Shown here piece by piece: positions 3,592 through 60,318 of a stretch of 64,000 nucleotides of DNA (within the stretch, counting starts at the first letter, position 1; every line of letters starts with the position of its first letter). The notes beneath the pieces were generated by a model. The model was not told where the DNA came from and did no database searches. It worked only from the letters and a program-made list of their open reading frames with translations. The DNA is from Flavobacteriaceae bacterium (GTDB lineage: Bacteria > Bacteroidota > Bacteroidia > Flavobacteriales > Flavobacteriaceae). Where the stretch lies: contig JAURRA010000002.1 in NCBI GenBank assembly GCA_030835825.1, positions 1 through 64,000 of the forward strand, written 5' to 3'. The position numbers and the translations under genes were made by a program.

Positions 3592-4113
3592 ATGACAAGA
3601 GAAGAAAAATCTAAAGTAATTGAAACGTTGACTGCCGAACTATCGGAATGTCCAAATATCTATTTGGCGGACATTTCTGGTTTAAATGCTGCAACTACTA
3701 CCGCCCTTCGCAGAGCGTGTTTTAAGGCTAATATCAAATTGGCTGTAGTTAAAAACACCCTGCTTGAAAAGGCGATGGAAGCTTCGGATAAGGATTTTGG
3801 TGGATTGCCCTCTACCTTGAAAGGCAATACATCGATCATGTATTCTGAAACTGGTAATGGTCCTGCAAAGGTGATTAAGGCGTTTAGAAAAAATAACGAA
3901 CGTCCACTTTTGAAGGGTGCCTTTATAGAAGAAGCAGTATATGTCGGCGACGAACTGTTGGATTCACTAGTAAGTATCAAGTCGAAAGACGAGTTACTCG
4001 GTGAAATCATTACACTGTTGCAATCACCAGCTAAAAATGTTGTTTCGGCGCTTCAGTCGAGTGGCGGCAAATTAGCAGGAATTGTAAAAACCCTTTCTGA
4101 AAGAGAGGCATAA
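3592..4113 (+). CDS. rplJ: 50S ribosomal protein L10
   Basis: L10 anchors the L7/L12 dimers to the ribosome. The 173-residue protein has the N-terminal rRNA-binding domain (with [10 protein letters not shown] near residues 51-60) and the C-terminal helix that binds L12. It is separated by 18 nt from rplA and 40 nt from rplL. Confidence 0.98.
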
Positions 4114-4153
4114 TTTTAATAACAAAACAAATATTATTTTAAAACATAAAACA

Positions 4154-4531
4154 ATGGCAGATTTAAAAGATTTTGCAGAACAATTAGTTAACCTTACAGT
4201 AAAAGAAGTTAATGAGTTAGCTACAATTTTGAAAGATGAATACGGTATCGAACCTGCGGCTGCAGCTGTTGCAGTTGCTGCTGGCGGATCTGGTGGTGGC
4301 GAAGCTGCTGCTGAAGAGAAGTCTGAATTCGACGTTGTATTGAAAGCCGCTGGTGCTTCAAAATTGGCAGTCGTTAAATTGGTGAAAGAACTTACTGGTC
4401 TTGGCTTGAAAGAAGCTAAAGAATTAGTAGATAACGCACCAAGCGCAATCAAAGAAGGCGTTTCTAAAGATGAGGCTGAAGGGCTTAAGACTTCTCTAGA
4501 AGAAGCTGGCGCTGAAGTTGAATTGAAGTAA
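4154..4531 (+). CDS. rplL: 50S ribosomal protein L7/L12
   Basis: The stalk protein recruits translation factors to the ribosome. It is 125 residues long. An N-terminal dimerisation domain is followed by an Ala/Gly-rich hinge ([20 protein letters not shown]) and a C-terminal domain containing [20 protein letters not shown]. It is the last gene before two tandem terminators that separate it from rpoB. Confidence 0.99.
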
Positions 4532-4550
4532 TTCAATTCCTTAACACATT

Positions 4551-4586
4551 GGTTTAGGCCTGGATCGTCCAGGCCTAAGCCTTTTT
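4551..4586 (+). terminator. Intrinsic terminator 1, rplL-rpoB gap
   Basis: A 14-bp stem (4551-4564 with 4568-4581, one G-T pair) closes a 3-nt TCG loop and is followed at once by TTTTT (4582-4586). It begins 19 nt after the rplL stop. It should end or attenuate transcription of the ribosomal protein genes before rpoB. Confidence 0.88.
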
Positions 4587-4614
4587 GTGTATGAAATAAC
4601 TTCATACACTTTTT
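4587..4614 (+). terminator. Intrinsic terminator 2, rplL-rpoB gap
   Basis: A perfect 9-bp stem GTGTATGAA/TTCATACAC with a 5-nt ATAAC loop is followed by TTTTT (4610-4614). It starts on the base after the T tract of the first terminator, so two terminators stand back to back. It is weaker in GC than the first. Confidence 0.72.
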
Positions 4615-4628
4615 CTATAAGTGAAAAT

Positions 4629-4636
4629 TAAATTTT
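4629..4636 (+). promoter_or_regulatory. Possible -7 element for rpoB
   Basis: TAAATTTT matches the Bacteroidota -7 consensus TANNTTTG at 7 of 8 defined or free positions and lies 9 nt before the rpoB ATG, after both terminators. No convincing TTTG -33 box is seen at the right distance. It is proposed only because rpoB needs transcription beyond the terminators. Confidence 0.25.
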
Positions 4637-4645
4637 CGTCCGTCG

Positions 4646-7600
4646 ATGCAAGCACAACAAACAGAAAGAATCAACTTTTCCTCAATCGTCAATAAAACTG
4701 CTTATCCGGACTTTCTGGATATTCAAATCAAGTCTTTTCAAGACTTTTTTCAATTGGAGACCAAATCCGATGAACGTGCCCACGAAGGCTTATTTAATAC
4801 CTTCATGGAGAACTTTCCTATTTCTGATACGCGCAACCAGTTCGTGTTGGAATTCTTGGATTATTTTATCGACCCACCGAGATACTCCATTGAGGAGTGT
4901 ATAGAGCGCGGGTTAACCTATAGCGTGCCCCTCAAGGCGCGATTAAAACTTTTTTGTACGGATGCCGAACACGAAGATTTTGAAACTATCGTTCAAGATG
5001 TTTATTTAGGTACTATTCCATACATGACTCCTAGTGGTACTTTTGTTATTAATGGTGCAGAACGCGTTGTGGTTTCTCAATTACACCGTTCACCTGGGGT
5101 GTTCTTTGGACAGTCATTTCACGCCAATGGAACAAAATTGTACTCGGCAAGAATTATTCCTTTTAAAGGTTCTTGGATTGAGTTTGCAACGGATATTAAT
5201 TCGGTGATGTATGCCTACATTGATCGTAAGAAAAAATTACCAGTAACAACTTTATTCAGAGCCATTGGTTTTGAGAGAGATAAGGATATTTTAGAAATAT
5301 TTGACCTGGCTGAAGAAATCAAAGTTTCCAAAGCCGGCTTGAAAAAAGTGCTTGGTCGCCAATTGGCCGCAAGAGTTCTTAATACTTGGCATGAAGACTT
5401 TGTTGATGAAGATACGGGTGAAGTAGTATCGATTGAAAGAAATAGTATAGTTTTAGATCGCGATACAATTCTTGAGAAGGAAAATATTGAAGAAATATTA
5501 GAAGCTGATGTTAAGACCATCCTGCTTCATAAGGAAGAATCGCTTTCTGCTGACTACGCCATCATTCACAATACCCTTCATAAAGATCCAACCAATTCGG
5601 AAAAGGAAGCTGTTGAACACATTTACCGTCAGTTGCGTAACGCCGAACCGCCAGATGAGGAGACAGCCCGTGGTATCATTGATAAATTATTCTTTAGCGA
5701 CCAACGATATAACCTGGGAGAGGTTGGCCGATATAGAATGAATAAAAAATTGGGACTAGATATCGGCATGGACAAGCAGGTCTTGACTAAGGAAGATATT
5801 ATTACCATCGTGAAATATCTGATAGAGCTAATTAACTCTAAGGCCGAAATCGATGATATCGATCACTTGTCTAATAGACGCGTTCGAACGGTTGGTGAGC
5901 AATTATCTCAGCAATTTGGTGTCGGACTATCAAGAATGGCTCGTACTATCCGCGAGCGCATGAATGTTAGAGATAACGAAGTATTCACGCCAATTGATTT
6001 GATCAATGCAAAGACTTTGTCTTCTGTAATCAATTCATTTTTTGGTACCAACCAATTGTCTCAGTTCATGGATCAAACCAATCCATTAGCAGAATTGACT
6101 CACAAGCGCCGTCTGTCGGCCTTAGGTCCAGGCGGTTTGTCAAGAGAGCGTGCTGGATTCGAGGTTCGTGATGTTCATTATACACACTATGGCCGTTTGT
6201 GTCCAATCGAAACACCTGAAGGTCCAAATATTGGACTAATTTCATCATTGAGTGTTTTTGCAAAAGTCAACTCAATGGGCTTCATTGAAACCCCATACCG
6301 AAAGGTTGAGAATGGCATCATCGATATCGCTGGTGAACCAGTTTATCTTTCAGCAGAAGAGGAAGAAGACAAACTAATTACACAAGCCAATATCCCCGTT
6401 GATGATAAAGGCGCTATAATTGACGAAAAGGTAACAGCTCGTTTAGAAGCAGATTACCCAGTGGTTTCACCATCAGACATTCACTTCACTGATGTTGCAC
6501 CAAATCAAATTGCATCTATTTCAGCATCATTGATACCTTTCTTGGAACATGATGATGCAAACCGTGCATTGATGGGATCCAACATGATGCGTCAGGCTGT
6601 ACCTTTGTTACGTCCCGAAGCACCTATTGTAGGAACTGGTCTTGAGCGTCAAGTTGCTAAAGATTCTCGAGTTTTAATTAACGCGGAAGGCGCCGGGGTG
6701 ATCGAGTATGTCGATGCCGATAAAATTACAATCCGTTATGACCGCACTGAAGAGCAAAACCTGGTAAGTTTTGATTCTGATACCAAAACATATCCTCTGA
6801 TTAAGTTTAGAAAAACCAATCAAGGGACATCCATTAACTTGAAACCAATTGTCAAAAAAGGTGACCGTGTTGAGTTGGGTCAAGTACTTTGTGAGGGCTA
6901 CGCCACTCAAAAGGGAGAACTTGCCTTAGGTCGTAACATGAAAGTGGCTTTCATGCCATGGAAAGGTTACAATTTTGAGGACGCTATTGTAATCTCTGAG
7001 AAGGTTGTTCGTGATGATATTTTCACTTCTGTTCATATCGATGAATACTCCTTAGATGTTCGCGACACCAAACTTGGTAATGAGGAATTGACCAACGATA
7101 TCCCCAATGTTTCTGAAGAAGCAACCAAAGACTTGGATGAGAATGGGATGATTCGTATCGGTTCTGAAATCAAACCAGGAGATATTCTAATTGGTAAAAT
7201 CACTCCTAAAGGTGAAAGCGATCCTACTCCAGAGGAAAAATTATTACGCGCCATTTTTGGTGATAAGGCTGGTGACGTCAAAGACGCTTCACTTAAAGCT
7301 TCGCCATCATTAAATGGTGTTGTAATTGACAAGAAGCTGTTTGCTAGAGCTGTTAAAGACAAGCGCAAAAGAGCCCAGGATAAAGAGGATATTGCAGCCT
7401 TAGAAATAACTTATGACGCTAAATTTGACGAACTTAAAAGTGTTTTAGTAGAGAAGTTATTTGCCATAGTAGGTGGAAAAACTGCTCAAGGAGTGTACAA
7501 TGATTTGGGAGAGGAATTGTTTCCTAAAGGAAAGAAATTTACTCTTAAAATGTTGAACGCTGTGGACGATTATGCTCACTTAGTGGCTGGAAAGTGGACT

Positions 7601-8458
7601 ACTACTGACGAAACCAACCGTTTGATCGCCGATTTGATTCACAATTATAAAATCAAAGAAAACGATCTTCAAGGGGCTTTACGTCGCGAGAAGTTTACCA
7701 TAGCCGTTGGTGACGAATTGCCAGCAGGTATCATCAAATTGGCGAAGGTTTATATCGCTAAAAAACGAAAACTGAAAGTAGGCGATAAGATGGCAGGGCG
7801 TCACGGTAACAAAGGTATTGTTGCACGTATCGTCCGACCTGAAGATATGCCTTTCTTGGAAGATGGAACACCGGTTGATATAGTTCTCAACCCACTAGGG
7901 GTGCCTTCTCGAATGAATATTGGTCAGATTTATGAAACCGTATTAGGTTGGGCTGGACAGAATTTGGGGCGCACTTATGCTACTCCAATTTTTGATGGAG
8001 CTACTATTGATCAAATCAATGAAATCACTGACTCTGCCAATGTGCCGCGATATGGTCATACCTATTTGTATGATGGTGGAACGGGTGAAAGATTCGATCA
8101 ACCTGCAACAGTTGGTGTGATCTATATGCTGAAACTTGGCCATATGGTCGATGATAAGATGCATGCACGTTCCATTGGACCTTACTCGTTGATAACACAG
8201 CAACCACTTGGTGGTAAGGCCCAGTTTGGTGGTCAACGTTTCGGAGAGATGGAAGTTTGGGCACTTGAAGCTTACGGAGCTTCGAGCACACTCCGTGAAA
8301 TTTTGACGGTAAAGTCCGATGATGTCGTTGGTCGGGCTAAAACTTACGAAGCGATTGTTAAAGGCGAAGCCATGCCAGAACCTGGATTGCCAGAATCGTT
8401 TAACGTATTGATGCACGAATTGAAGGGCTTAAGCTTGGATATCAGATTAGAAGAATAA
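4646..8458 (+). CDS. rpoB: DNA-directed RNA polymerase subunit beta
   Basis: The 1270-residue beta subunit forms one half of the RNA polymerase active-site cleft and carries the rifampicin pocket. Visible hallmarks are [18 protein letters not shown] and [13 protein letters not shown] (rifampicin region, about residues 465-500). Others are [34 protein letters not shown], the [14 protein letters not shown] active-site region and the C-terminal [24 protein letters not shown]. The length is that expected for the phylum. It is followed after 26 nt by rpoC. Confidence 0.99.
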
Positions 8459-8484
8459 TAACACAACAGTTTTATATATAACTC

Positions 8485-11400
8485 ATGTCAAGACAACAAG
8501 ATATTAACACTGTCAAGAAGTTCAATAAAATTTCAATAGGCCTATCCTCTCCGGAGGCAATCCTAGCTGAATCCAGAGGCGAAGTACTTAAGCCAGAAAC
8601 CATCAATTATCGGACTCACAAACCTGAAAGAGATGGTTTGTTTTGCGAGAGAATTTTTGGTCCTGTTAAGGACTTTGAATGTGCCTGCGGTAAGTACAAA
8701 AGAATAAGATACCGCGGCATCGTTTGCGATCGTTGTGGCGTCGAGGTTACTGAAAAGAAAGTAAGACGTGACCGTGTAGGTCATATCAACTTGGTGGTGC
8801 CTGTGGCCCACATTTGGTATTTCCGTTCCTTACCCAATAAAATAGGCTACCTCCTTGGTTTGCCGTCTAAGAAATTGGACATGATCATATATTACGAGCG
8901 ATATGTCGTAATTCAACCGGGTATAGCAAAAAATGCTGAAGGTGAATCTGTAGAGAAAATGGACTTCCTTACTGAGGAAGAATATTTGACAATTATGGAA
9001 ACTTTGCCTGTAGAACAGCAATATATGGATGATTCTGACCCAGATAAGTTTATCGCTAAAATGGGAGCAGAGTGCCTAATTGAACTTCTGTCACGTATCG
9101 ATCTTGATGAATTGTCTTACGAATTGCGTCACAAGGCTAACAATGAGACCTCAAAGCAAAGAAAGACTGAAGCATTGAAAAGACTTCAAGTTGTTGAGGC
9201 CTTTAGAGAGTCTAAAGAAAATAGAGAAAATCGTCCAGAATGGATGATTTTAAAAACTATTCCAGTTATTCCACCGGAATTACGTCCTTTGGTGCCTTTA
9301 GATGGTGGTCGTTTTGCTACTTCTGATTTAAATGACTTATACCGACGAGTAATCATACGTAACAATCGATTGAAACGATTGGTTGAAATCAAAGCACCGG
9401 AGGTGATTTTGAGAAATGAAAAACGCATGTTACAAGAGTCTGTAGATTCCCTGTTTGATAATACTCGCAAGGCATCAGCAGTTAAGACTGATTCTAACCG
9501 TCCATTGAAGTCATTGTCAGATTCTTTGAAAGGAAAACAAGGTCGTTTCCGTCAAAACTTACTCGGAAAGCGTGTTGACTATTCTGCACGGTCGGTGATT
9601 GTTGTAGGACCAGAATTGAAATTGTTTGAATGTGGATTGCCAAAAAATATGGCAGCAGAGCTTTATAAGCCATTCATTATCAGAAAACTGATTGAACGTG
9701 GTATTGTAAAAACTGTAAAGTCTGCCAAGAAGATTATAGATAAAAAAGAGCCTGTAGTTTGGGATATTTTGGAAAATGTTTTGAAAGGACATCCAGTTCT
9801 TTTAAATCGCGCTCCTACCTTGCACAGACTTGGGATTCAGGCTTTTCAGCCTAAATTGATTGAAGGAAAAGCGATTCAATTGCACCCACTCGTATGTACT
9901 GCCTTTAATGCCGATTTCGATGGCGATCAGATGGCTGTTCACTTACCTTTGGGTCCTGAGGCAATATTAGAAGCTCAGTTGTTGATGCTGGCTTCGCACA
10001 ATATCTTGAATCCGGCAAACGGATCTCCCGTGGCAGTGCCTTCTCAAGACATGGTTTTAGGGCTTTATTATATGACCAAAATCATGAAATCTGAAGGAGA
10101 CCTGGTGGTTAAAGGAGAAGGGCTGACTTTCTATTCCCCAGAGGAGGTCGTTATTGCATATAATGAGAAAAAGCTTGATTTAAATGCTCAAATTAAAGTG
10201 CGTACAATGGACTTTAATGCGGCGGGTGAATTAGTGCCTCAAATCGTTCAAACGTCAACAGGGCGCGTACTTTTCAATGAAAAGGTACCTCAAGAAGCTG
10301 GTTATATCAATCAATTGTTGACAAAAAAATCCCTGAGAGATATTATCGGTGACATTCTTAAAGTAACATCTGTCCCGAGAACAGCTCAATTTCTCGATGA
10401 AATCAAAACCTTAGGATTCAACTTCGCCTTTAAAGGTGGTCTTTCCTTTAGTTTAGGGGATATCATTATTCCTGGTGAAAAGCAGGGAATGATTGATGGC
10501 GCTCAAAAAGAAATAGACAATATTGTTGCGAACTACAATATGGGTCTTATTACTAATAACGAGCGTTATAATCAGGTGATTGATATTTGGACTTCTACCA
10601 ATGCCGAATTGACTGAACTCTCTATGAAGAGAATTCGAGAAGACCAACAAGGTTTCAACTCTGTGTTTATGATGTTGGATTCAGGTGCACGAGGTTCGAA
10701 AGAGCAAATTCGCCAACTTACGGGAATGCGTGGATTGATGGCCAAGCCAAAAAAATCTAATGCTGGCGGTGGCGAAATTATTGAGAATCCGATTTTATCA
10801 AACTTTAAAGAAGGACTTTCCATTCTAGAATATTTCATCTCTACTCACGGTGCCCGAAAAGGTCTCGCTGATACGGCGCTGAAAACTGCTGACGCGGGTT
10901 ACCTGACTCGCCGTTTGGTTGATGTTTCTCAGGATGTGATTATCAATTCGGAAGATTGTGGTACGCTCCGTGGTGTTGTGGTTCAAGCCCTAAAGAAGAA
11001 TGAAGAAGTTGTTGAAGATTTGGCTGCTAGAATCGTTGGGCGTACTGCCCTAGAGGATGTATACAACCCGTTGAATAATGAATTATTAGTTGGTGCCGGT
11101 GAGGATATTACTGATCAGGTTGCTGCTAATATTGAAGATTCTCCAGTAGACAAAGTTCCTGTGCGTTCTCCATTAACTTGCGAGGCCGAGACAGGTATTT
11201 GTTCCAAGTGTTACGGTCGTAACTTGGCCACTGGCAAGATGGTACAACGTGGTGAAGCTGTCGGTGTTGTTGCGGCTCAGTCAATTGGAGAGCCAGGAAC
11301 TCAGCTTACCTTGCGTACTTTCCACGTAGGTGGTATTGCTGGTAACATTTCTGAGGAAAACAAAATTGTTGCCCGTTTTGACGGTGTGGTTGAAATGGAA

Positions 11401-27632: not shown

Positions 27633-28895
27633 ATGCGTGCCGAAATCATTACTATTGGAGATGAAATCCTCATTGGTCAAATTGTCGATAGCAATTCTGC
27701 CTTCATTGGAAAATCTTTGTCTCAAATTGGAATCACGGTAAAGTACATTACTTCTATTGGCGACGATCAGGAGGCCATTATTTCGGCTTTGAGATTAGCC
27801 GAATCTCGTACCGATTTAATCATTATTACTGGAGGCTTGGGTCCTACGAAGGATGATATTACTAAAAAAACCTTAGCCACTTATTTTAATGACTCCTTAG
27901 TTCTTGATAAAACGGTTTTACTCCATATCGAGGAACTTTGGAGGTCATATATAAAGCAACCCTTATTGCAAGTCAACAGAGATCAAGCTTTGGTCTTGTC
28001 GAAGGCAGAAATTCTTGCAAATCATTACGGCAGTGCGCCAGGGATGTGGATCGAAAAGGGTCAAACTGTGGTGGTGTCTTTACCCGGTGTTCCCTATGAA
28101 ATGAAATCGATTTTGAATTCCGAATTACTGCCAAAATTAACAGAGAGATTTCAACTACCCACAATTGTTCATAGAACTATCCTGACTCAGGGTATGGGTG
28201 AAAGTCTATTGGCTGAAAGAATTTCTGATTGGGAAAACATGCTCGATCCTTCAATTAAATTGTCTTACTTGCCCAATTTAGGTCGCGTCAGACTGCGTCT
28301 TTCATCAATAGACCAGGATAAAATGAAGGTAGAAATTAGAGTACAATCGGCCATTGACACTTTGCTTCCTCTTATCCAAGATATATTTGTAGGTTTTGAG
28401 GATAACCAATCCATTGAAACAATTATCGGGGATATTTTAACAAAGCGCAATCAAACTTTGTCACTCGCAGAGAGCTGCACCGGTGGAGCCATAGCTGGAT
28501 GTTTGACTTCACATCCTGGGGCATCGAAATATTTTAAAGGTAGTTTGGTAAGCTATGCTACCGCGGTCAAAACAGAAGTTTTAGGCGTTGATGACGAATT
28601 GATTCAAGATCAGGGTGTGGTGAGTGAAGCGGTAGCTATTCAAATGGCTCAAAAAGTTCGAGCTCTTTTCAAAACGGATTATGCGATATCAACAACTGGA
28701 GATGCAGGGCCCTCTACCTCAGAAGGTCGGGTTACCGTTGGTACTGTTTGCATTGCAATTGCTGGTCCCACAGAGATTCAGTCGGGTACTTTTCAGTTTG
28801 GAAAAAGTCGTGAAAGAGTAATTAAAAAGGCTGTGAACAAGGCGTTTGAACTGCTATATAAGGAAATATTAAAAAATGCCTCTAAAGAAGTTTGA
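27633..28895 (+). CDS. cinA: CinA family protein (NMN amidohydrolase / MoCF domain)
   Basis: A 420-residue protein with the N-terminal MoCF-like domain (ITIGDEILIGQIVDSNSAFI, IITGGLGPTKDDITKKT, PGVPYEMKSIL). The C-terminal CinA deamidase domain (LAESCTGGAIAGCLTSHPGASKYFKGSLVSY...TGDAGPS) removes the amide from nicotinamide mononucleotide in NAD recycling. The full-length two-domain form is the one shared by most Bacteroidota. It is the last gene before a fresh promoter and rpmB. Confidence 0.95.
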   Translation: MRAEIITIGDEILIGQIVDSNSAFIGKSLSQIGITVKYITSIGDDQEAIISALRLAESRTDLIIITGGLGPTKDDITKKTLATYFNDSLVLDKTVLLHIEELWRSYIKQPLLQVNRDQALVLSKAEILANHYGSAPGMWIEKGQTVVVSLPGVPYEMKSILNSELLPKLTERFQLPTIVHRTILTQGMGESLLAERISDWENMLDPSIKLSYLPNLGRVRLRLSSIDQDKMKVEIRVQSAIDTLLPLIQDIFVGFEDNQSIETIIGDILTKRNQTLSLAESCTGGAIAGCLTSHPGASKYFKGSLVSYATAVKTEVLGVDDELIQDQGVVSEAVAIQMAQKVRALFKTDYAISTTGDAGPSTSEGRVTVGTVCIAIAGPTEIQSGTFQFGKSRERVIKKAVNKAFELLYKEILKNASKEV

Positions 28896-29202: not shown

Positions 29203-29385
29203 ATGGCTAAAAAAGGCAATCGCGTACAGGTAATTCTAGAATGCACAGAGCATAAAGAATCTGGTATGCCAGGAACATCACGGTACATTACCACCAAAAA
29301 CAAAAAAAACACTCCCGATCGTATGGAGATTAAGAAATTCAACCCAATTCTTAAGCGCATGACGGTTCACAAGGAAATTAAATAA
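29203..29385 (+). CDS. rpmG: 50S ribosomal protein L33 (zinc-free form)
   Basis: A 60-residue protein with the family core [25 protein letters not shown] and the C-terminal [14 protein letters not shown]. It has only one Cys and lacks both CxxC pairs, so it is the zinc-independent (C-minus) type. It lies 17 nt after rpmB and 6 nt before the DUF4295 gene. Confidence 0.97.
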
Positions 29386-29391
29386 TTAATC

Positions 29392-29544
29392 ATGGCAAAA
29401 AAATCTGTAGCATCCTTACAAACTGGATCGAATCGGCTAACCAAGGCGATTAACATGGTAAAGTCTTCTAAAACGGGAGCCTATACTTTTGTTGAAACTA
29501 TTATGGTACCTGAAGAAGTGAACAACTTTTTCAATAAAAAATAA
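29392..29544 (+). CDS. DUF4295 family small protein
   Basis: A 50-residue basic protein that begins MAKKSVASLQTGSNRLTKAI and ends PEEVNNFFNKK. It belongs to DUF4295, a short family that almost always follows rpmG in Bacteroidota. The position and positive charge suggest a ribosome-associated role, but that is inference. It starts 6 nt after rpmG and is followed by an intrinsic terminator. Confidence 0.9.
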   Translation: MAKKSVASLQTGSNRLTKAINMVKSSKTGAYTFVETIMVPEEVNNFFNKK

Positions 29545-29565: not shown

Positions 29566-29602
29566 AAAGCTGCTTTTGTTTCGGAAGCAGCTTTTCTTTT
29601 TT
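29566..29602 (+). terminator. Intrinsic terminator of the rpmB-rpmG-DUF4295 operon
   Basis: A perfect 10-bp stem AAAGCTGCTT/AAGCAGCTTT (29566-29575 with 29585-29594) with a 9-nt loop is followed by a T-rich run (TCTTTTTT). It begins 21 nt after the DUF4295 stop and ends 13 nt before the rimO start. Confidence 0.85.
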
Positions 29603-29614
29603 ATACTTTTCAAT

Positions 29615-30919
29615 TTGAGAACTAAGACCTTATCAAAAAATACTATTAATGTTATCACCTTAGGGTGTAGCAAAAATACTTATGATAGCGAGGTTCTATT
29701 GGGTCAGTTACAGGCTAACGGCAAGGCTGTGGTTCACGAGGGTGAAGGTAATATTGTAGTCATTAACACTTGCGGTTTTATCGATAATGCAAAAGAGGAA
29801 AGTGTTAACACCATACTTGATTATATTCAAAGAAAACAAGAGGGATTGGTCGACAAGGTTTATGTCACGGGGTGCTTGAGCGAACGCTACAAGCCAGATT
29901 TAATTGAAGAAATTCCGGACGTGGATCAATATTTTGGTACTACCGAATTACCACAATTGTTGAATGCACTCGGAGCCGACTACAAACATGAGCTCGTGGG
30001 GGAGCGGTTGACAACTACGCCTCGGAATTATGCCTATCTCAAAATTGCTGAAGGTTGCGATCGCCCTTGTAGTTTTTGCGCTATTCCATTGATGCGCGGG
30101 AAACACCGATCTACACCGATAGAAGATTTGGTGCTTGAAACTAAAAAATTGGCTTCTAAAGGGGTAAAAGAACTTATTCTCATCGCTCAAGATCTCACCT
30201 ACTATGGGCTAGACTTGTACAAAAAGCGCCGTTTAGCAGATCTGTTGCGTGAACTGGTTAAGATAGATGGTATCGAGTGGATTCGCCTGCATTATGCGTT
30301 TCCGACTGGCTTCCCAATGGAAGTATTGGACGTCATGCGTGCCGAGTCAAAAATTTGTAATTATATAGATATTCCGTTACAGCATATCTCCGACAATGTT
30401 TTGAAAAGTATGAAACGCGGCACAACAATGGCTAAAACTACTGCTCTTCTGAATGAATTTCGTTTAGCAGTTCCAGATATGGCTATTCGCACGACTTTAA
30501 TTGTGGGTTATCCTGGCGAGACCGAAGATGATTTTCAACTGCTAAAAAAATGGGTTAAAGACATGCGATTCGAGCGTTTAGGATGTTTTCAATATTCTCA
30601 CGAAGAAGACACCAAGGCCTACGAGTTGGATGACAATGTGCCTGCCGAAGTGAAACAACAACGAGCTAACGAGATTATGGAGGTTCAATCTCAAATTTCG
30701 TGGGAGTTAAATCAACAAAAGGTGGGGCATGTCATGAAGGTCATGATCGATAGGAAAGAGGGCAATTATTATATCGGTCGCTCGGAGTATGACTCGCCAG
30801 ATGTCGATAATTTGGTCCATATATCCAATGTTCAATCCTATTTATCACCAGGTACTTTTGTAGATGTGCTTATAGAAGAAGCTACCGACTACGATTTGTA
30901 TGGTATTTTGAGAGCCTAA
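29615..30919 (+). CDS. rimO: Ribosomal protein S12 methylthiotransferase RimO
   Basis: A radical-SAM enzyme that methylthiolates an Asp of ribosomal protein S12 using two 4Fe-4S clusters. The N-terminal UPF0004 domain has LGCSKNTYDSEV, NTCGFI and VTGCLSERY, whose Cys bind the first cluster. The radical-SAM motif CDRPCSFCAIP is near residue 150. The C-terminal TRAM domain ends the 434-residue protein. No ATG is available near the expected start. I choose the TTG at 29615, which gives the usual Bacteroidota start (M)RTKTLSKNTINVITLGCSKN. An earlier TTG at 29576 would start inside the terminator. Confidence 0.93.
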   Translation: MRTKTLSKNTINVITLGCSKNTYDSEVLLGQLQANGKAVVHEGEGNIVVINTCGFIDNAKEESVNTILDYIQRKQEGLVDKVYVTGCLSERYKPDLIEEIPDVDQYFGTTELPQLLNALGADYKHELVGERLTTTPRNYAYLKIAEGCDRPCSFCAIPLMRGKHRSTPIEDLVLETKKLASKGVKELILIAQDLTYYGLDLYKKRRLADLLRELVKIDGIEWIRLHYAFPTGFPMEVLDVMRAESKICNYIDIPLQHISDNVLKSMKRGTTMAKTTALLNEFRLAVPDMAIRTTLIVGYPGETEDDFQLLKKWVKDMRFERLGCFQYSHEEDTKAYELDDNVPAEVKQQRANEIMEVQSQISWELNQQKVGHVMKVMIDRKEGNYYIGRSEYDSPDVDNLVHISNVQSYLSPGTFVDVLIEEATDYDLYGILRA

Positions 30920-47972: not shown

Positions 47973-48746
47973 TTGAATACAAGAGAAAACCAATTAAAAT
48001 CCATAGATCGGCTATTAACCATAATGGATGACTTGCGTGCCAAGTGCCCGTGGGATAAAAAACAGACCTTAGAGTCGTTGAGGCATCTCACCATTGAAGA
48101 GGTCTACGAATTGGGCGATGCCATTCTTGAAGGTGATATGGAAGAAATCAAACAGGAGCTAGGAGACCTATTACTTCATATTATTTTTTATTCTAAAATT
48201 GGTAGCGAAACTAAGAATTTTGACATCGGGTTGGTGGCAGAATCTATCTCGGATAAATTAGTAGATAGACATCCACATATTTACGGTGATGTCGTGGCAG
48301 AAGATGAAGAAGCTGTCAAGCAGAATTGGGAAAAGCTTAAACTCAAAGAAGGTAAAAAAAGTGTTTTAGAGGGCGTCCCGAAAAGTTTACCTGCCTTAGT
48401 CAAGGCGAGTAGAATTCAAGAAAAGGTGGCCGGAGTTGGTTTTGATTGGGAAAAAACCGAAGACGTCAAAGGTAAATTACTTGAAGAATTGTCCGAACTA
48501 GATCAGGAAGTGCAATTAGGAAATACCGATAGAATCGAGGAAGAATTTGGAGACGTCATGTTCTCTCTGATTAACTATGCCCGGTTTCTAGATGTAAGTC
48601 CAGAAAATGCTTTAGAAAGGACTAATAAGAAATTTATAAAACGATTTCAGTTTATAGAACATCAGGCATCAAGGGCGGGTAAAACTATATCCGATTTATC
48701 TCTAAATGAAATGGAACATTATTGGGAAATGGCTAAAACCAACTAA
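47973..48746 (+). CDS. mazG: Nucleoside triphosphate pyrophosphohydrolase MazG
   Basis: Hydrolyses (d)NTPs to NMP and pyrophosphate, a house-cleaning enzyme also linked to ppGpp control. The 257-residue protein has two MazG folds. The first contains CPWDKKQTLESLRHLTIEEVYELGDAI with the ExxE metal motif and KQELGDLLLHIIF. The second contains LLEELSELDQEV and EEEFGDVMFSLINYAR. I prefer the TTG at 47973 ((M)NTRENQLKSIDRLL, the usual start) to a TTG five codons earlier that overlaps the preceding gene. Its TAA shares the CTAA tetranucleotide with the stop of the opposing DUF349 gene. Confidence 0.92.
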   Translation: MNTRENQLKSIDRLLTIMDDLRAKCPWDKKQTLESLRHLTIEEVYELGDAILEGDMEEIKQELGDLLLHIIFYSKIGSETKNFDIGLVAESISDKLVDRHPHIYGDVVAEDEEAVKQNWEKLKLKEGKKSVLEGVPKSLPALVKASRIQEKVAGVGFDWEKTEDVKGKLLEELSELDQEVQLGNTDRIEEEFGDVMFSLINYARFLDVSPENALERTNKKFIKRFQFIEHQASRAGKTISDLSLNEMEHYWEMAKTN

Positions 48747-50821
48747 TCATCTTCTCTGGCCACGCGCTTCAGGGCATTCATTTTACTTTGGTATTCCTCT
48801 AATTCAACCCGTTTTTTGTCAATATTTTTGTGAACGTCTCTCACCATTGGATTCTTCGAATCTACATTGCTAAAAAATTGTAAATTATTTTCCAATTGAC
48901 GTATTTCTCCGGTAATCTCGTCGATTTTTTTACGAAGCTGTATTTGTTCGTAATCAAATGATCTGGAGTCGTCTGAGGAATACAGGTCTCTTAATTTACT
49001 TTCGTACAGATGACTTTGAAGTTCTTGTTTGGACAGTCCCAATCCCTTAAAAGTTTTGTCAATATATTTGTTGAATTTCGTTTCAACTTCTTTGCCGCCT
49101 CTGGGGACACGACCAAGCGCATTCCACTCAGAGGTCAAAGTTTTGACAAACTGAAGTGCATCCTTTTGGTCGGATGGGATTTCTCTGTCTTTCAATGTTT
49201 TTAAAAACGCAGTCTTATTGTTTAAGGCCTCTATCGCCTCTTTGGTATCTCCACTTCGTTCTTTTTTTAGATTTTCAAAGTATGTGTTGCATGCACTCTT
49301 AAACTGTTTCCAAATTTTATCGCTGTCTTTTCGCGGCACTTGACCTATGGTTTTCCATTCATTCTGAATTTTTTTCATGATTGGAGTCGATACCTTAAAG
49401 TCCGAACTATTCATATGCTCTTCAGCGATAGTAATGAGTTCTTTTTTCTTGGCTAAGTTATCCAAGAGTTCTTTTTTCTGGTTTTTAAAATATTGGTTTT
49501 TATTTCTATTGAAGGTTCTAGTAGCGTCCTTAAAGGCGTCCCAAATGACATTTCTGTCTTTAGAAGGAACTTTACCAATATCAAAATATTGCTCCCTGAG
49601 CTTTTGAACCGCACTACTAGCCTGCTGAAACTCTCGGTGTGTATTATGAGATTTATGGGCTAGGTCATTGATCTTGGCAATGATTTCTTGTTTTCGAGAT
49701 AAATTCTTTAGGTAATTCTCATCGAGTGAGGCATTATAGTCTTGCCGCTTGTCATGAATTATTTTAGTTACATCCTGAAACCTTTTCCAAATCTCTTCAC
49801 TTTGGTCTCTATGTACTGGACCCAATTCCTCTTTCCACATTTTGTGAAAAGTTTGAAGCTCTCTAAATACTTTGTTGTTAAACTGTTTTTTAGCTAATCC
49901 TTCTGCAATTTCAATGATTTTGAGCTTTTGTTCGAGGTTATGCTTGTAGTCCAAGTCTCGAAATTCTCTGTTCAGATGCAAAAAGGTATAAAAGTTTTCG
50001 ACATGGTGGTGATAGGTTTGCCACAGATTGTGGCTTTCAACTCGAGGTACAGCTCCGGTATCTCGCCACTTTTTTTGAAGACCTTTAAAAACCTTATAAA
50101 TTTCAGCCATTTCCTCTGGGGATTCGAAAAGAGCCTTGATGTCATCTATTATTTGAAGCCTAATCTTGAGATTCTGTTGAAGTTTTTCTTCCAATTCGCG
50201 TCTGGAGGCCTTTCTCTTCTGCTGATAAGTCCTAAACAGTTTGTCAAAAGATCGTTTTTCGTCAGATTCGAAGTAAAATGGCACTTGGGATTCCCCAGTC
50301 TCAGATGTTTGTGCTTTCTCAGCTAAGTTTTTAGCCTCATCAAATTGCGTATCAAAGGCTTTTTTCAACGCATCTACTTTATCTCTTAATTGTCGGGTTG
50401 ATTCAGAGGTTAAAAGTAATTCGAAAGCCTTGACCAGTTCCGCCATGCTCATAGTCTCAAATTCATCCGATTCCTGTTCTTCTGAATTCGCTTTTTCCGA
50501 ATCAACTGCTGAGTTTTGAGTTTTTTCTTTTCCAGTAGCATCTGGTTTTGCCTCTGCTTTTGGATTTTCTGGTTCACTTTCTTTAGTACCCGCAATAACT
50601 TTGTCTGAAACAGACTCTAAACTCAATTCAGTTGCTTCTGAAGAATCCTCACCTTCAATCTTGGTAACAGACTTTTTTGTAACTTCAGCAGAATCCTCTT
50701 TTTCAACTGGGTTTGTGGCGTCCTGAGATTGTACAACTTCTGCAGAGTGCTCCTCAGATGGGTTCGCATCGTTCTTATTCTCTGAAGCTCCTAGTGACTC
50801 GTTCTTTTGATCGTCTGACAT
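48743..50821 (-). CDS. DUF349 repeat protein
   Basis: A 692-residue cytoplasmic protein of unknown function. Residues 1 to about 130 are acidic, Glu/Ser/Thr-rich and probably disordered. After that come about five DUF349 repeats, each with the pattern EWKTIGQVPRKDSDKIWKQFKSACNTYF. Examples are KKWRDTGAVPR, EQYFDIGKVPSKDRNVIWDAFK and SEWNALGRVPRGGKEVETKFNKY. Long coiled-coil helices follow, and the C-terminus is also a coiled coil. Such proteins are found in nearly all Bacteroidota. It stands upstream of no obvious partner and converges with mazG. Confidence 0.9.
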   Translation of the reverse strand: MSDDQKNESLGASENKNDANPSEEHSAEVVQSQDATNPVEKEDSAEVTKKSVTKIEGEDSSEATELSLESVSDKVIAGTKESEPENPKAEAKPDATGKEKTQNSAVDSEKANSEEQESDEFETMSMAELVKAFELLLTSESTRQLRDKVDALKKAFDTQFDEAKNLAEKAQTSETGESQVPFYFESDEKRSFDKLFRTYQQKRKASRRELEEKLQQNLKIRLQIIDDIKALFESPEEMAEIYKVFKGLQKKWRDTGAVPRVESHNLWQTYHHHVENFYTFLHLNREFRDLDYKHNLEQKLKIIEIAEGLAKKQFNNKVFRELQTFHKMWKEELGPVHRDQSEEIWKRFQDVTKIIHDKRQDYNASLDENYLKNLSRKQEIIAKINDLAHKSHNTHREFQQASSAVQKLREQYFDIGKVPSKDRNVIWDAFKDATRTFNRNKNQYFKNQKKELLDNLAKKKELITIAEEHMNSSDFKVSTPIMKKIQNEWKTIGQVPRKDSDKIWKQFKSACNTYFENLKKERSGDTKEAIEALNNKTAFLKTLKDREIPSDQKDALQFVKTLTSEWNALGRVPRGGKEVETKFNKYIDKTFKGLGLSKQELQSHLYESKLRDLYSSDDSRSFDYEQIQLRKKIDEITGEIRQLENNLQFFSNVDSKNPMVRDVHKNIDKKRVELEEYQSKMNALKRVAREDD

Positions 50822-50918
50822 TTGTTTCAGTATAAAGGTTCGTAGTAGTGGATATTCTTCAAAGATACGACTAAGCTAAGAATAACCAAATATGTCAACT
50901 GGCTAAGTCACTGCGATT

Positions 50919-55075: not shown

Positions 55076-56272
55076 TTACGATTTCGCGACATAAGCATTT
55101 AAGGAGGCCAATATCGTTTCACAACCTTTGCGGATCTGTTTTGAACTAATGGTCAAAGGTGGCGTTATTCTCAAAGCCTTTGATTCATATAGTAATCCGA
55201 ATAAAATCAAACCGCGTTCGAGACAATCCTTGATGACCCACTGAACAGCCTCTTCCGAAGGCAAAATGGCTGCTAGCATTAATCCTTTACCTCTAATTTC
55301 ACTAATGAGCCGATGCTTCAATTGTGCCCGAATCATTTGTTCTTTAGATAATGTATCTCGAATGAGATGACTTTTTTTCAGAACCTGGAGCGTTGCCAGT
55401 GCTGCGGCAGCTATAATGGGATGCCCGCCAAAAGTTGTAATATGCCCCAATTTTGGATTGTCAGCCAAACTATACATGATTTCTTTGGAGGCTGTAAAAG
55501 CCCCAATGGGCATGCCGCCACCCAAACCTTTTCCCATGACTAAAATATCTGGGATACAATTGTAGTGCTCGAAGCCAAATAATTGTCCAGTTCGGCCCAT
55601 GCCTGGCTGGATTTCATCCAGTATCAGTAGTGCACCAACTTCTGTGCATCTGGCGCGTAAAGCTTCTAAATATCCTAAGTCGGGTAATATAAATCCTGCA
55701 CCACCTTGAATGGTTTCTGCTACAACTGCTGCGGTATTTGTGGTAATTTGGGATAAGTCTTCTCGACTGTTAAAATGAATAAAACTGATGTCGGGGAGCA
55801 GGGGTTCAAATGGTTTTTTTCGCGATTCATAGCCCATAATACTCAAGGCACCATAGGTATTACCGTGATACGCTTGATGCATTGCAATTATTTCTGTACG
55901 ACCTGTCGCACGACGCGCCAATTTCATAGCCCCGTCAATAGCTTCAGTGCCCGAATTGGTCAAATAAGTGCTTTCCAAAGGATGGGGTAGCGACTCAGCG
56001 AGCAGTTTGCATAATCCGATAGGCGCCGATTGCAGATACTCCCCATAGACCATAACATGAAGGTACTTTCCCAGTTGCTTTTTGATGGCTCTAGTAACTG
56101 CCGGGTGTCGATGACCTAAGCTACAAGCCGAAACTCCAGCTACCAGGTCCAAATACTTTTCCCCTCGGTCGTCATAAATATAACAACCCTTGGCTTTTTG
56201 AACTTTGAGTGTATAGGGATGCGGGGTGGTCTGTGCCTGATACTGAAAGAAGTCAGAAGTCTTCATCCTCAT
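55076..56272 (-). CDS. Class III PLP-dependent aminotransferase
   Basis: A 398-residue aminotransferase of the acetylornithine/ornithine/4-aminobutyrate group. It has YLDLVAGVSACSLGHRHPAV, LTNSGTEAIDGAMKLARRATGR for phosphate binding, HQAYHGNTYGALS, ILDEIQPGMGRTG with the Asp that touches the pyridine ring, and the PLP-Lys in VMGKGLGGGMPIGA. No other arg or lysine genes are nearby, so the substrate is unassigned. Either ATG 56272 or ATG 56266 could be the start. The first overlaps the OstA-like gene by 20 nt. Confidence 0.87.
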   Translation of the reverse strand: MRMKTSDFFQYQAQTTPHPYTLKVQKAKGCYIYDDRGEKYLDLVAGVSACSLGHRHPAVTRAIKKQLGKYLHVMVYGEYLQSAPIGLCKLLAESLPHPLESTYLTNSGTEAIDGAMKLARRATGRTEIIAMHQAYHGNTYGALSIMGYESRKKPFEPLLPDISFIHFNSREDLSQITTNTAAVVAETIQGGAGFILPDLGYLEALRARCTEVGALLILDEIQPGMGRTGQLFGFEHYNCIPDILVMGKGLGGGMPIGAFTASKEIMYSLADNPKLGHITTFGGHPIIAAAALATLQVLKKSHLIRDTLSKEQMIRAQLKHRLISEIRGKGLMLAAILPSEEAVQWVIKDCLERGLILFGLLYESKALRITPPLTISSKQIRKGCETILASLNAYVAKS

Positions 56273-58049
56273 CTTTTATTGGTTTGCCCTTTTTTTTCCG
56301 CAGTTCGTCCATGAGTTTTTTGGGAACCGGCTTCTTTTTCAGTAGGTTCGTTGACTTGTCCTTTTCGCGCTCTTTGATCTCATTTGGAGTAGCCGTTTCG
56401 ATCGCCTTAAGACGGGCTTCGTCAAAAAATTCAGTCTGAGGAATATAGGGTGACAGACCTTTAATAACTGGCAGTTCAAGAGGCGGGTCGTCTTTGAATA
56501 AGTCTTCGACACTTTGCGGTCTTTCGTCATCTCGCCAGACAAAGCCTCTTAAAATCCGATCTCTTTCTTCAAGATCTGCTTCGGGATATGACTTTCCGCC
56601 AATCTGAATGTATTTAATGAGTTCTTCGACGGTATTGTCTTCAAAGAGCATCACAATTTTTCCCGATTTAGATACGTCAATTCCAATGAGTTCATTGACC
56701 TCATTCCTCATAAAATATATGGATTCAGCATTTTTGATCACATCAACTTGGTATAGGGCATTGTCGCTAAACAACCCGATTAAGGTTTTGCCCTTAATTT
56801 GATTAAAACCTAATCCTATGGTATCTTTCGATACCACAAAGGCATTGTTAAAAACTCTAAGACTGTCTAGGGTTTCAGTCTTAGGGTTGGCTTTCAAAAT
56901 AATTGTGTCACCAGTCATTTGATTGTCTAAGTGCCAAAGGATAGGATCCTTTTTTTTACCGAAGGCTTCAGCTCCTGAAAACCTTTGGAGATTGATTAAC
57001 TTGGTCAGGCCGCTTGCCTGATTGGTATGTATAGAATCCGCTTTGCCAGCAAGATTCGATTTATAAATTTTGGCGTTGTAATACGCTTTAGTGATGCGTT
57101 TGTCCTCTGGTCCAACAACCTTGATGGTATCACTGTGAATGTAAATGGAATCATTTTCCTGAACTCCAATCGCGACCGCTCTTTTGGTGATATACATCGA
57201 ATCCTGTGCTCGGAATATTTCAGCAAAATGACCTCTTACCACTGTATTATTTAGGGTGTCAGTGACCTGTATGTTGTTGACAGCAGAGGCGTAGTTCCTA
57301 CTGCGATCAAAGTAAAGGCTATCGCCTTTTACAATTGAGTTATTATAAAATAGCTTGGCATCTTTTAAAAAATAGCCTACATCCCTTTTGGTATCATAAT
57401 AGCCGCGTTCGCAATACACCCGACTGTCCTTACTTTGGATAGTACTTGGCCCAAAGAGATAGGCATGACTGCTCTCAGCATAGAAATCTAATTGTTGGGA
57501 ATCGATGACGTATTTGTCATTGACCAAATGAACAGAATCAACAAATTGATATTTTTTAGCGTTCATATAATAACGCCCAATTCTGCTTGTAATAGTTCCG
57601 GTTGTATCTTGTTCTACACGTCCATTATCTTTGTAAAAAGCCTCTTGAACACGCCGGTCGAAATATAATTTTTCAGTAAATATTGTTGATGAAGGGTCTT
57701 TTAAAATAACACCTCCGCTAGCAATAGCTAATTCTGTTTTCCCACTGTAATCTACAAAATCTGAGCGCATTTCCAGAGTGTCGCCTTGCCGAATCAGCAC
57801 ATTGCCATAGGCTTCAATATAATTGTCTTTGGCATAGTGAATGGCTTGATCACACCACATCAATACCCCGTTATGCGATATTCTGACTTGATCACTTTTA
57901 TCGCGGGTGAGAATGGTCCCTCCAGGAAATTTTGACGCGTCCTTTTCTAGGGAAGGCGCGTAATCAATGGTGATTTGTTGCCGCTCTTGAGCATGGCCAA
58001 GACCAGCACAGCACAAGGCAAAAACAACGACATATCGCAATAAACCCAC
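56253..58049 (-). CDS. OstA-like envelope protein (LptA/OstA domain)
   Basis: A 598-residue exported protein. The signal peptide is LLRYVVVFALCCAGLGHAQ. The following region holds OstA/LptA-type beta-jellyroll repeats (VLMWCDQAIHYAKDNYIEAYGNVLIRQGDTLEMRSDFVDY; LYFDRRVQEAFYKDNGRVEQDTTG; VYCERGYYDTKRDVGYFLKDAKLFYN). The C-terminal tail is basic and Lys/Glu-rich. Bacteroidota OstA-like proteins are thought to help carry lipopolysaccharide to the outer membrane. The start codon is GTG at 58049. It overlaps the aminotransferase by 20 nt. Confidence 0.87.
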   Translation of the reverse strand: MGLLRYVVVFALCCAGLGHAQERQQITIDYAPSLEKDASKFPGGTILTRDKSDQVRISHNGVLMWCDQAIHYAKDNYIEAYGNVLIRQGDTLEMRSDFVDYSGKTELAIASGGVILKDPSSTIFTEKLYFDRRVQEAFYKDNGRVEQDTTGTITSRIGRYYMNAKKYQFVDSVHLVNDKYVIDSQQLDFYAESSHAYLFGPSTIQSKDSRVYCERGYYDTKRDVGYFLKDAKLFYNNSIVKGDSLYFDRSRNYASAVNNIQVTDTLNNTVVRGHFAEIFRAQDSMYITKRAVAIGVQENDSIYIHSDTIKVVGPEDKRITKAYYNAKIYKSNLAGKADSIHTNQASGLTKLINLQRFSGAEAFGKKKDPILWHLDNQMTGDTIILKANPKTETLDSLRVFNNAFVVSKDTIGLGFNQIKGKTLIGLFSDNALYQVDVIKNAESIYFMRNEVNELIGIDVSKSGKIVMLFEDNTVEELIKYIQIGGKSYPEADLEERDRILRGFVWRDDERPQSVEDLFKDDPPLELPVIKGLSPYIPQTEFFDEARLKAIETATPNEIKEREKDKSTNLLKKKPVPKKLMDELRKKKGKPIKDEDEDF

Positions 58050-58108
58050 GGATTTGTTTTTGGTAAAATTAAGGATAATTTTTAGCCTATTTTCCTTATC
58101 GTTACGAT

Positions 58109-58317
58109 TTACTTTTTCTGTACAAACTCGGTTCGCAGTACAATTTTTATTTTTTGAACCCGACAGTCAATTTCATCGCTATTCTCGGTAATCGAATCCC
58201 TTTGACAACAGTACCTCTTTTGATGGTCATCCCTGCGCCTTTTACCTTGAGATCTTTGGTCGTTTTAACGCTGTCTCCGTCTTGGAGTGGGGTTCCATTG
58301 CAGTCTTTAGTTTCCAT
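58109..58317 (-). pseudogene. PhnA-domain protein gene broken by a one-base frameshift
   Basis: From the ATG at 58317 the frame reads [16 protein letters not shown]...VKGIRL, the first two thirds of a short PhnA (alkylphosphonate utilisation operon) domain protein. After the Leu codon the original frame runs to a stop at 58147 (56 codons). The -1 frame continues the domain as [13 protein letters not shown]...RTEFVQKK and stops at 58109. One missing base near position 58185 explains this; the repaired protein would have about 69 residues. It lies 24 nt after the DUF167 gene. The site (CGATTACCG) is not a known slippery heptamer, so a real deletion or an assembly error is likelier than programmed frameshifting. 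Confidence 0.8.
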
Positions 58318-58341
58318 AGAATGTTGAATTATGAAGCGGAA

Positions 58342-58569
58342 TCAGTGCGCATGAACCCGAACCAATTTGTTTTTATTTTGATGACCTTTTAGAATTTCAA
58401 TACTTTTTTTCTGTATTTGGAAATGCTTGGCCAAAATTTCAATTACCGCTTTGTTGGCTTTGTCGTCTATGGCAGGGGCATTGACCCACACCTTGAGCAA
58501 TTGTTCGTTAGCTACCAACTTGGTCAGCTTGGCGTTTGGAACCACTTTAACGGTATAAATCCATTCCAT
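58342..58569 (-). CDS. DUF167 (YggU-like) protein
   Basis: A 75-residue protein of the DUF167 family. It has VKVVPNAKLTKLV, LKVWVNAPAIDDKANKAVIEILAKHF and the C-terminal IEILKGHQNKNKLVRV. The function is unknown, although the fold is seen near RNA and metabolic enzymes. It starts 17 nt after the purA stop, and the frameshifted PhnA gene follows. Confidence 0.93.
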   Translation of the reverse strand: MEWIYTVKVVPNAKLTKLVANEQLLKVWVNAPAIDDKANKAVIEILAKHFQIQKKSIEILKGHQNKNKLVRVHAH

Positions 58570-58586
58570 TTTAACTTCGGAGCGTC

Positions 58587-59858
58587 TTATCTAAAAATAG
58601 TTTGTTTGCGGTCTGGTCCAACGGATACAATCGTGATAGGAATATCTAGTTCCTTTTCAATAAAATCGATATAGGCCAACAACTCTTGAGGCAGATCGTT
58701 CATGGTTGTCATCCCGGTCAAGTCTTCTTCCCAACCCTTAAATTTCTTATATATGGGCTTCACAAATTCTGGGGCAATGTCAAATGGAAAATGACTAATT
58801 TCTTCGCCTTTGTGTTCATAGGTCGTGCAAATTTCTATGGTGTCAAAGCCCGACAATACGTCCGCTTTCATCATCATGAGTTGTGTCACACCATTAATCT
58901 GACAACTATACTTTAATGCAACTAAATCCAACCAACCACAGCGTCTGGGACGGCCAGTTGTAGCTCCAAACTCTTGACCAACTTTTGACATGGCAGCTCC
59001 ATTATCGTCAAATAACTCCGTAGGGAATGGTCCCGAACCAACCCGTGTTGTATAAGCTTTGAAAATTCCAAAGACCTCACCGATGGCTTTTGGGGCAATC
59101 CCCAGTCCAGTACAAGCACCTGCTGCAGTAGTAGTGGAGGAGGTTACAAAGGGATAGGTGCCAAAGTCGATATCAAGCAGTGAACCCTGCGCTCCTTCTG
59201 CTAAGATGGGCTGAGAGTTTTTTATGGCCTGATGTAAAAACTCTTCGGAATCGATAAACTGAAGTGTTTTTAAGGTGTCGATAGCCTCGAAAAAATCAGT
59301 CTCTAAGGCATCTAAATCATATTCAATATCGGATTGATGAAACTTGATAAGCGTGCAATGTTTTTCGGCTAATCGGCGGTATTTTTCCTTCCAATCAGGA
59401 GATTCGATGTCACCCACGCGTATACCGTTACGGCCAGTTTTATCCATATAGGTGGGGCCAATTCCCTTAAGAGTAGATCCGATTTTCGCTTTCCCTTTTG
59501 AGGCCTCACTGGCGGCATCCAATAGACGGTGGGTTGGCATTATTAAGTGAGCCTTTCTCGAAACGAGTAAATTTTTTCGGTAGTTTATGCCTTCTTCACT
59601 CAGTTTGTCCAGTTCTTTTTTGAAGATTACGGGATCAATTACAACTCCGTTGCCAACAACATTCATGGCTTCCGAATGAAATATTCCTGAGGGTATGGTA
59701 TGCAGCACGTGTTTACGCCCATTAAAAACCAAGGTATGACCTGCATTAGGACCACCTTGAAAACGCGCGATGATGTTGTATTTTGCGGTGAGGACATCGA
59801 CAATTTTTCCTTTGCCTTCGTCACCCCACTGTAATCCAAGAAGTAAATCTACTGCCAT
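58587..59858 (-). CDS. purA: Adenylosuccinate synthetase
   Basis: Makes adenylosuccinate from IMP, Asp and GTP, the first committed step to AMP. The 423-residue protein has VDLLLGLQWGDEGKGKIVD (catalytic Asp and P-loop), QGGPNAGHTLVF, ILAEGAQGSLLDIDFGTYPFVTSS and TTGRPRRCGWLDLV. The start at 59858 (MAVDLLLGLQW) is set by the family; upstream in-frame codons belong to the end of fur. It starts 7 nt after fur. Confidence 0.98.
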   Translation of the reverse strand: MAVDLLLGLQWGDEGKGKIVDVLTAKYNIIARFQGGPNAGHTLVFNGRKHVLHTIPSGIFHSEAMNVVGNGVVIDPVIFKKELDKLSEEGINYRKNLLVSRKAHLIMPTHRLLDAASEASKGKAKIGSTLKGIGPTYMDKTGRNGIRVGDIESPDWKEKYRRLAEKHCTLIKFHQSDIEYDLDALETDFFEAIDTLKTLQFIDSEEFLHQAIKNSQPILAEGAQGSLLDIDFGTYPFVTSSTTTAAGACTGLGIAPKAIGEVFGIFKAYTTRVGSGPFPTELFDDNGAAMSKVGQEFGATTGRPRRCGWLDLVALKYSCQINGVTQLMMMKADVLSGFDTIEICTTYEHKGEEISHFPFDIAPEFVKPIYKKFKGWEEDLTGMTTMNDLPQELLAYIDFIEKELDIPITIVSVGPDRKQTIFR

Positions 59859-59865
59859 ATTGGGT

Positions 59866-60318
59866 TTATTTCTTATTGTTTTTAGTTCCGTAAAAATAGA
59901 GACAATGCTTATGAATGCTGATGTCGAATAGTTCTTCGATGGTTTGCTTAATACTTTGAATACGCGGATCACAAAACTCAATGACTTCTCCAGTGTCGCT
60001 CAATATGACATGATCGTGCTGCTTGTCGAAATAGGATTTTTCGTATTGAGATTGATTACCTCCAAATTGATGCTTGCGCACAAGGGCACATTGCTGCAGT
60101 AGTTCAATAGTATTGTAGAGGGTGGCTCTCGACACACGATAGTTTTTTTCTTTCATGGTCATATACAGAGCCTCGATATCAAAGTGTGTTTCTTGATCGT
60201 AAATTTCCTGGAGAATAGCATAACGCTCCGGCGTTTTTCGGTGCCCATTTGACTCAAGAAAAGCTGTGAAAACTTCCTTGACAATTTCCTGCTGTTTTAT
60301 ACCTGATTTTATACTCAT
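59866..60318 (-). CDS. Fur family transcriptional regulator
   Basis: A 150-residue metal-dependent repressor. The DNA-binding winged helix lies at about 25-85 ([31 protein letters not shown]). The dimer domain holds the regulatory metal ligands (HFDIEALY; H101/H103 in [27 protein letters not shown]). The structural zinc CxxC expected around residues 106-109 is replaced by LSDT. It lies in rsh-fur-purA, 19 nt after rsh and 7 nt before purA, an order conserved in Bacteroidota. Whether it senses iron, peroxide or zinc cannot be told. Confidence 0.9.

Follow-up and report, generated by a model that had tools for sequence, protein, structure and literature searches.

The closest described relatives of the locus presented here are the YjdM/PhnA-domain proteins (PF03831), with 2akk and 2akl as solved relatives. 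For E. coli YjdM, phosphonoacetate hydrolase activity has been reported in vitro (PMC10645960), while this role is contested on genetic and genome-context grounds (PMC12506659). The cellular role of the family is disputed. The second point of comparison is given by the frameshifted genes of Blochmannia, where slippage at homopolymer tracts is reported to correct the frame (PMC3017870).

The window, i.e., the whole stretch of 64,000 nucleotides analysed here, is contig C7 of genome G000 (1,624,941 bases, 30 contigs). Both halves of its PhnA gene match the PF03831 profile in order, but unlike in other YjdM/PhnA-domain proteins they are split between two frames. The likeness to the Blochmannia genes consists of a single indel in an otherwise well-kept gene; however, the Blochmannia indels sit in poly-A or poly-T tracts (PMC3017870), and the junction here does not. 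The frameshift in this small, widespread bacterial gene is most likely either a new inactivating mutation or an error of sequencing. The split gene is otherwise ordinary and nothing unusual.

The split gene and its product

The gene lies on the minus strand at 58317-58109 and is spread over two frames. The features of the locus, together with its two neighbours, were as follows:

58147..58317, minus strand: first part, ATG at 58317, zero-frame ORF of 56 codons with stop at 58149-58147
58109..58189, minus strand: second part, -1 frame 58189-58112, 26 codons with stop at 58111-58109, C-terminal third of the domain
58187..58191, minus strand: boundary between the frames, short of one base relative to three congeners, outside any homopolymer
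58342..58569, minus strand: upstream neighbour, intact, DUF167/YggU family (TIGR00251, 73.4 bits, cut-off 35)
56253..58049, minus strand: downstream neighbour, intact, with weak likeness to LptC (TIGR04409, E 0.00047, under the cut-off of that profile), presumably LptA/OstA-like

Residues 1-43 of the first part, through ...KGIRL, belong to the YjdM/PhnA domain and the last 13 residues are out of family; the second part, in the -1 frame, ends ...RTEFVQKK. The first part matched PF03831 over profile positions 2-42 (E 2.8e-18, 66 bits), which is over the curated Pfam cut-off of 23.2, and the second part alone matched positions 43-69 with E 6.4e-5 and 23.2 bits, exactly the cut-off. The halves stand in order and side by side on the profile, but the whole domain is not found in one frame. 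The first-pass annotation had described two convincing PhnA parts in different frames, and the profile positions bear this out; judged from the sequence, the two-frame match is not due to chance. The same annotation had placed one missing base near 58185, in agreement with the four-sequence DNA alignment of the window and three congeners from start to stop, where the gap comprises one column only, in the row of the window, at the junction 58187-58191.

Loss of one base would bring translation out of frame after residue 43, with a stop at codon 57, and the resulting product, lacking the C-terminal portion of its small beta domain, would probably be unfolded and non-functional. In the predicted structure of a congener's PhnA protein (10 sequences, mean pLDDT 94.2, pTM 0.78), strands of at least three residues were found at 17-19, 49-54, 57-62, and 66-68, the last three of them after the break, while several two-residue strand stretches precede the break and would remain in the short product. 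Because the break precedes all but one of the four longer strands, the truncated 56-aa product is, judged from this model, probably not folded. The zinc ribbon of YjdM is N-terminal. The 56-aa product matched the full-length YjdM profile TIGR00686 (zinc ribbon domain-containing YjdM) only from position 43, over 43-83 of 109, with 39.2 bits against a cut-off of 80.2. The 56-aa protein might be functional in itself, having an open frame that begins with a start codon, but three of the four longer strands would be missing from it and the 44 further domain matches described below all continue past that point; we regard a functional short protein as extremely improbable.

Congeners and the wider family

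The window was compared with three genomes of the same genus (G001, G002, and G003). When the DNA of 40 genomes, the own one among them, was searched, seven gave matches, i.e., the own genome, the three congeners, and three others over 32-55 bases. All three congeners have an unbroken 69-aa PhnA frame, each behind a YggU-like frame and a gene which we take to be purA. The protein search in the four genomes of the genus, own included, returned three unbroken copies and that of the window in two pieces. The 69-aa protein of G003 matched 2akk over residues 2-68 (E 1.2e-21). The gene downstream of PhnA is the same in G003 and G002, while in G001 another small frame (L005 1933-2163) comes first. 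A break shared by orthologues had been named in the first-pass annotation as evidence against its reading; the break is conserved in 0/3 congeners.

Among 60 genomes, own included, PF03831 was found over the cut-off in 45. The match is whole in 44 of these, beginning at position 1 or 2, ending at 68 or 69, and free of internal stops; only that of the window's genome is cut, ending at 42. No match was found in the remaining 15 genomes, among them 10 of the 51 near-complete ones, although so short a gene may also drop into an assembly gap. Since these 10 near-complete genomes are without the domain, the gene seems to be dispensable and its loss tolerated. A second PF03831 copy over the cut-off was not found in the window's genome. 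A candidate rescuing copy on contig C12 (16.5 bits, E 0.012) contains an internal stop, continues into the beginning of an unrelated frame of 204 aa, and appears to be a chance hit.

Mutation or consensus error

We find it moderately probable that in this genome or strain one base was lost, very recently, from a single-copy YjdM/PhnA gene which stands in the same place as in the congeners. A sequencing or assembly error, by which the gene of the organism would be whole and the consensus one base short, is possible with rather less confidence. Family residues are kept in both halves and, in the set of 60 genomes, no other of the 45 domain matches is cut, which speaks for such an error, as do the numbers of changes in the gene, which are within those of the intact flanking genes, as an assembly error would also give. 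The own genome, with its 30 contigs, may moreover be a metagenome assembly.

For the counts of these changes on the window branch, G003 and G002 served as references and the junction codons were left out. PhnA showed 7 synonymous and 5 non-synonymous changes (first part 6/2, second part 1/3); the counts for the intact PhnA, both parts together, were 7/0 in G003 and 16/5 in G002. The flanking genes, for which the names (purA, LptA-like, Fur-like, and aminotransferase among them) are partly our assumption, gave 97/32 for purA, 9/7 for YggU, 162/81 for the LptA-like gene, 40/11 for the Fur-like gene, and 130/80 for the aminotransferase. The 7/5 of PhnA is inside the range of these five genes, near its upper end, and the PhnA counts are too small for dating. 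Because the PhnA changes fall within the flanking-gene range, the break is either young relative to the separation of the species or an artefact. The earlier proposal of a recent event or an assembly error is supported by this range and by the family residues kept in both halves. Between the window and G003, the first part differed by 14/3 and the second by 4/6 (Fisher p 0.039, uncorrected, with several pairs compared), and the intact pair G003-G002 trended the same way (17/4 vs 9/6, p 0.26). The tilt of the second part toward amino-acid changes comprises very few changes and may weakly favour real decay.

Most consensus indel errors fall in homopolymers. Other split genes were looked for with frames of at least 80 aa, a range which leaves PhnA and other tiny genes outside; matches of at least 50% identity were taken as partners, and the own genome was searched as 14 pieces. 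The 61 frames of G003 had 60 partners with two split matches, neither of which was a broken gene. For G002, all 8 frames had partners and none was split, while 278 frames of G001 gave 28 partners, none split, and G001 adds little. In the reverse scan with 249 own frames, 61 partners were found in G003 (3 split) and 31 in G001 (2 split). No second broken gene was found in the 60 frames shared with the G003 contig, and the consensus there is not generally indel-rich. These comparisons point to a low error rate and a clean consensus in the shared region, where one error would still be possible. The position of the junction outside a homopolymer and the lack of a second broken gene in the scan count against a consensus error. 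Of the two, recent real inactivation is somewhat likelier; on this inferred reading, the organism itself would lack the base and its product would have no activity. This matters little beyond annotation, in which the frameshift of the PhnA gene should be indicated; a real break would add to the signs that the small PhnA domain is dispensable.

The split matches of the scan from 80 aa were inspected individually and rejected as broken genes of the window. The match at 58574-58642 joins the end of purA to a stop-to-stop frame of YggU, and that at 58590-59999 is a stop-to-stop extension of purA. Matches antisense to other frames were found at 4087-4670 (to the plus-strand frames 3592-4113 and 4154-4531), at 58393-58671 on the plus strand (to YggU), and at 58079-58324 on the plus strand (to the PhnA gene itself, seen against both G003 and G001). 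The match at 48746-50875 is split in G001 and not in the window: the 692-aa frame 48743-50821 of the window has its counterpart at L059 19354-20000, at the end of contig C2 of G001, where the match falls into two frames, and G001 may carry a frame break of its own there. A scan from 60 aa added 8275-8606, antisense to the end of one long plus-strand frame and the start of the next. It also added 29281-29480 on the minus strand, between the plus-strand frames 27633-28895 and 29576-30919. Here a stop-to-stop frame of G003, 67 aa long, is matched in two frames and with a stop, and the stretch may be a small gene, the antisense of one, or a chance match.

Recoding and the neighbourhood

Some full-length product could be obtained from the two frames by a -1 ribosomal shift or by RNA polymerase slippage at a run of six A, which we consider very unlikely. 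The two open frames overlap by more than 100 bases, and the A6 run at 58155-58150, the only slippage candidate seen, lies directly before the premature stop, about 32-37 bases downstream of the junction. Slipping by one base at this run would reconnect the domain with its C-terminal tail, and the correction by slippage reported from Blochmannia is a precedent (PMC3017870). However, the run is in the wrong phase for a slippery heptamer, and no in-phase X XXY YYZ heptamer was found in the PhnA gene, just as the first-pass annotation had noted the lack of a classic slippery site. No stable RNA structure was found in the 110-nt fold, which is weaker than most shuffles (z +1.18, 182 of 200 folding at least as well). 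Even after a slip at A6, some 12 foreign residues would remain, lying across a predicted strand. For E. coli RNA polymerase, longer runs are reported to be necessary, with a minimum of 7 for T and a still higher one for A (PMC6260861). Because the break is absent in the three congeners, it is not an old programmed signal. Still more improbable is that a real, strain-fixed frameshift is tolerated through slippage at A6 giving a low-level chimeric full-length product; if true, the A6 rescue would be a natural case outside endosymbionts.

A mobile origin was also considered. A viral-contig search with the 56-aa product returned 10 pattern matches and no confirmed relative, and a 37-base stretch spanning the junction, when searched for, gave no exact match. 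Between 57900 and 58700, Rfam gave no match at gathering thresholds, and a consensus scan gave no terminator-like sites and three promoter-like sites (shuffles mean 1.3, sd 1.1), into which we read nothing. In G001, the YggU-like frame before PhnA (L005 1265-1384) is only 39 aa long, while its counterparts in the window and G002 measure 75 aa; the frame of G001 may be broken.
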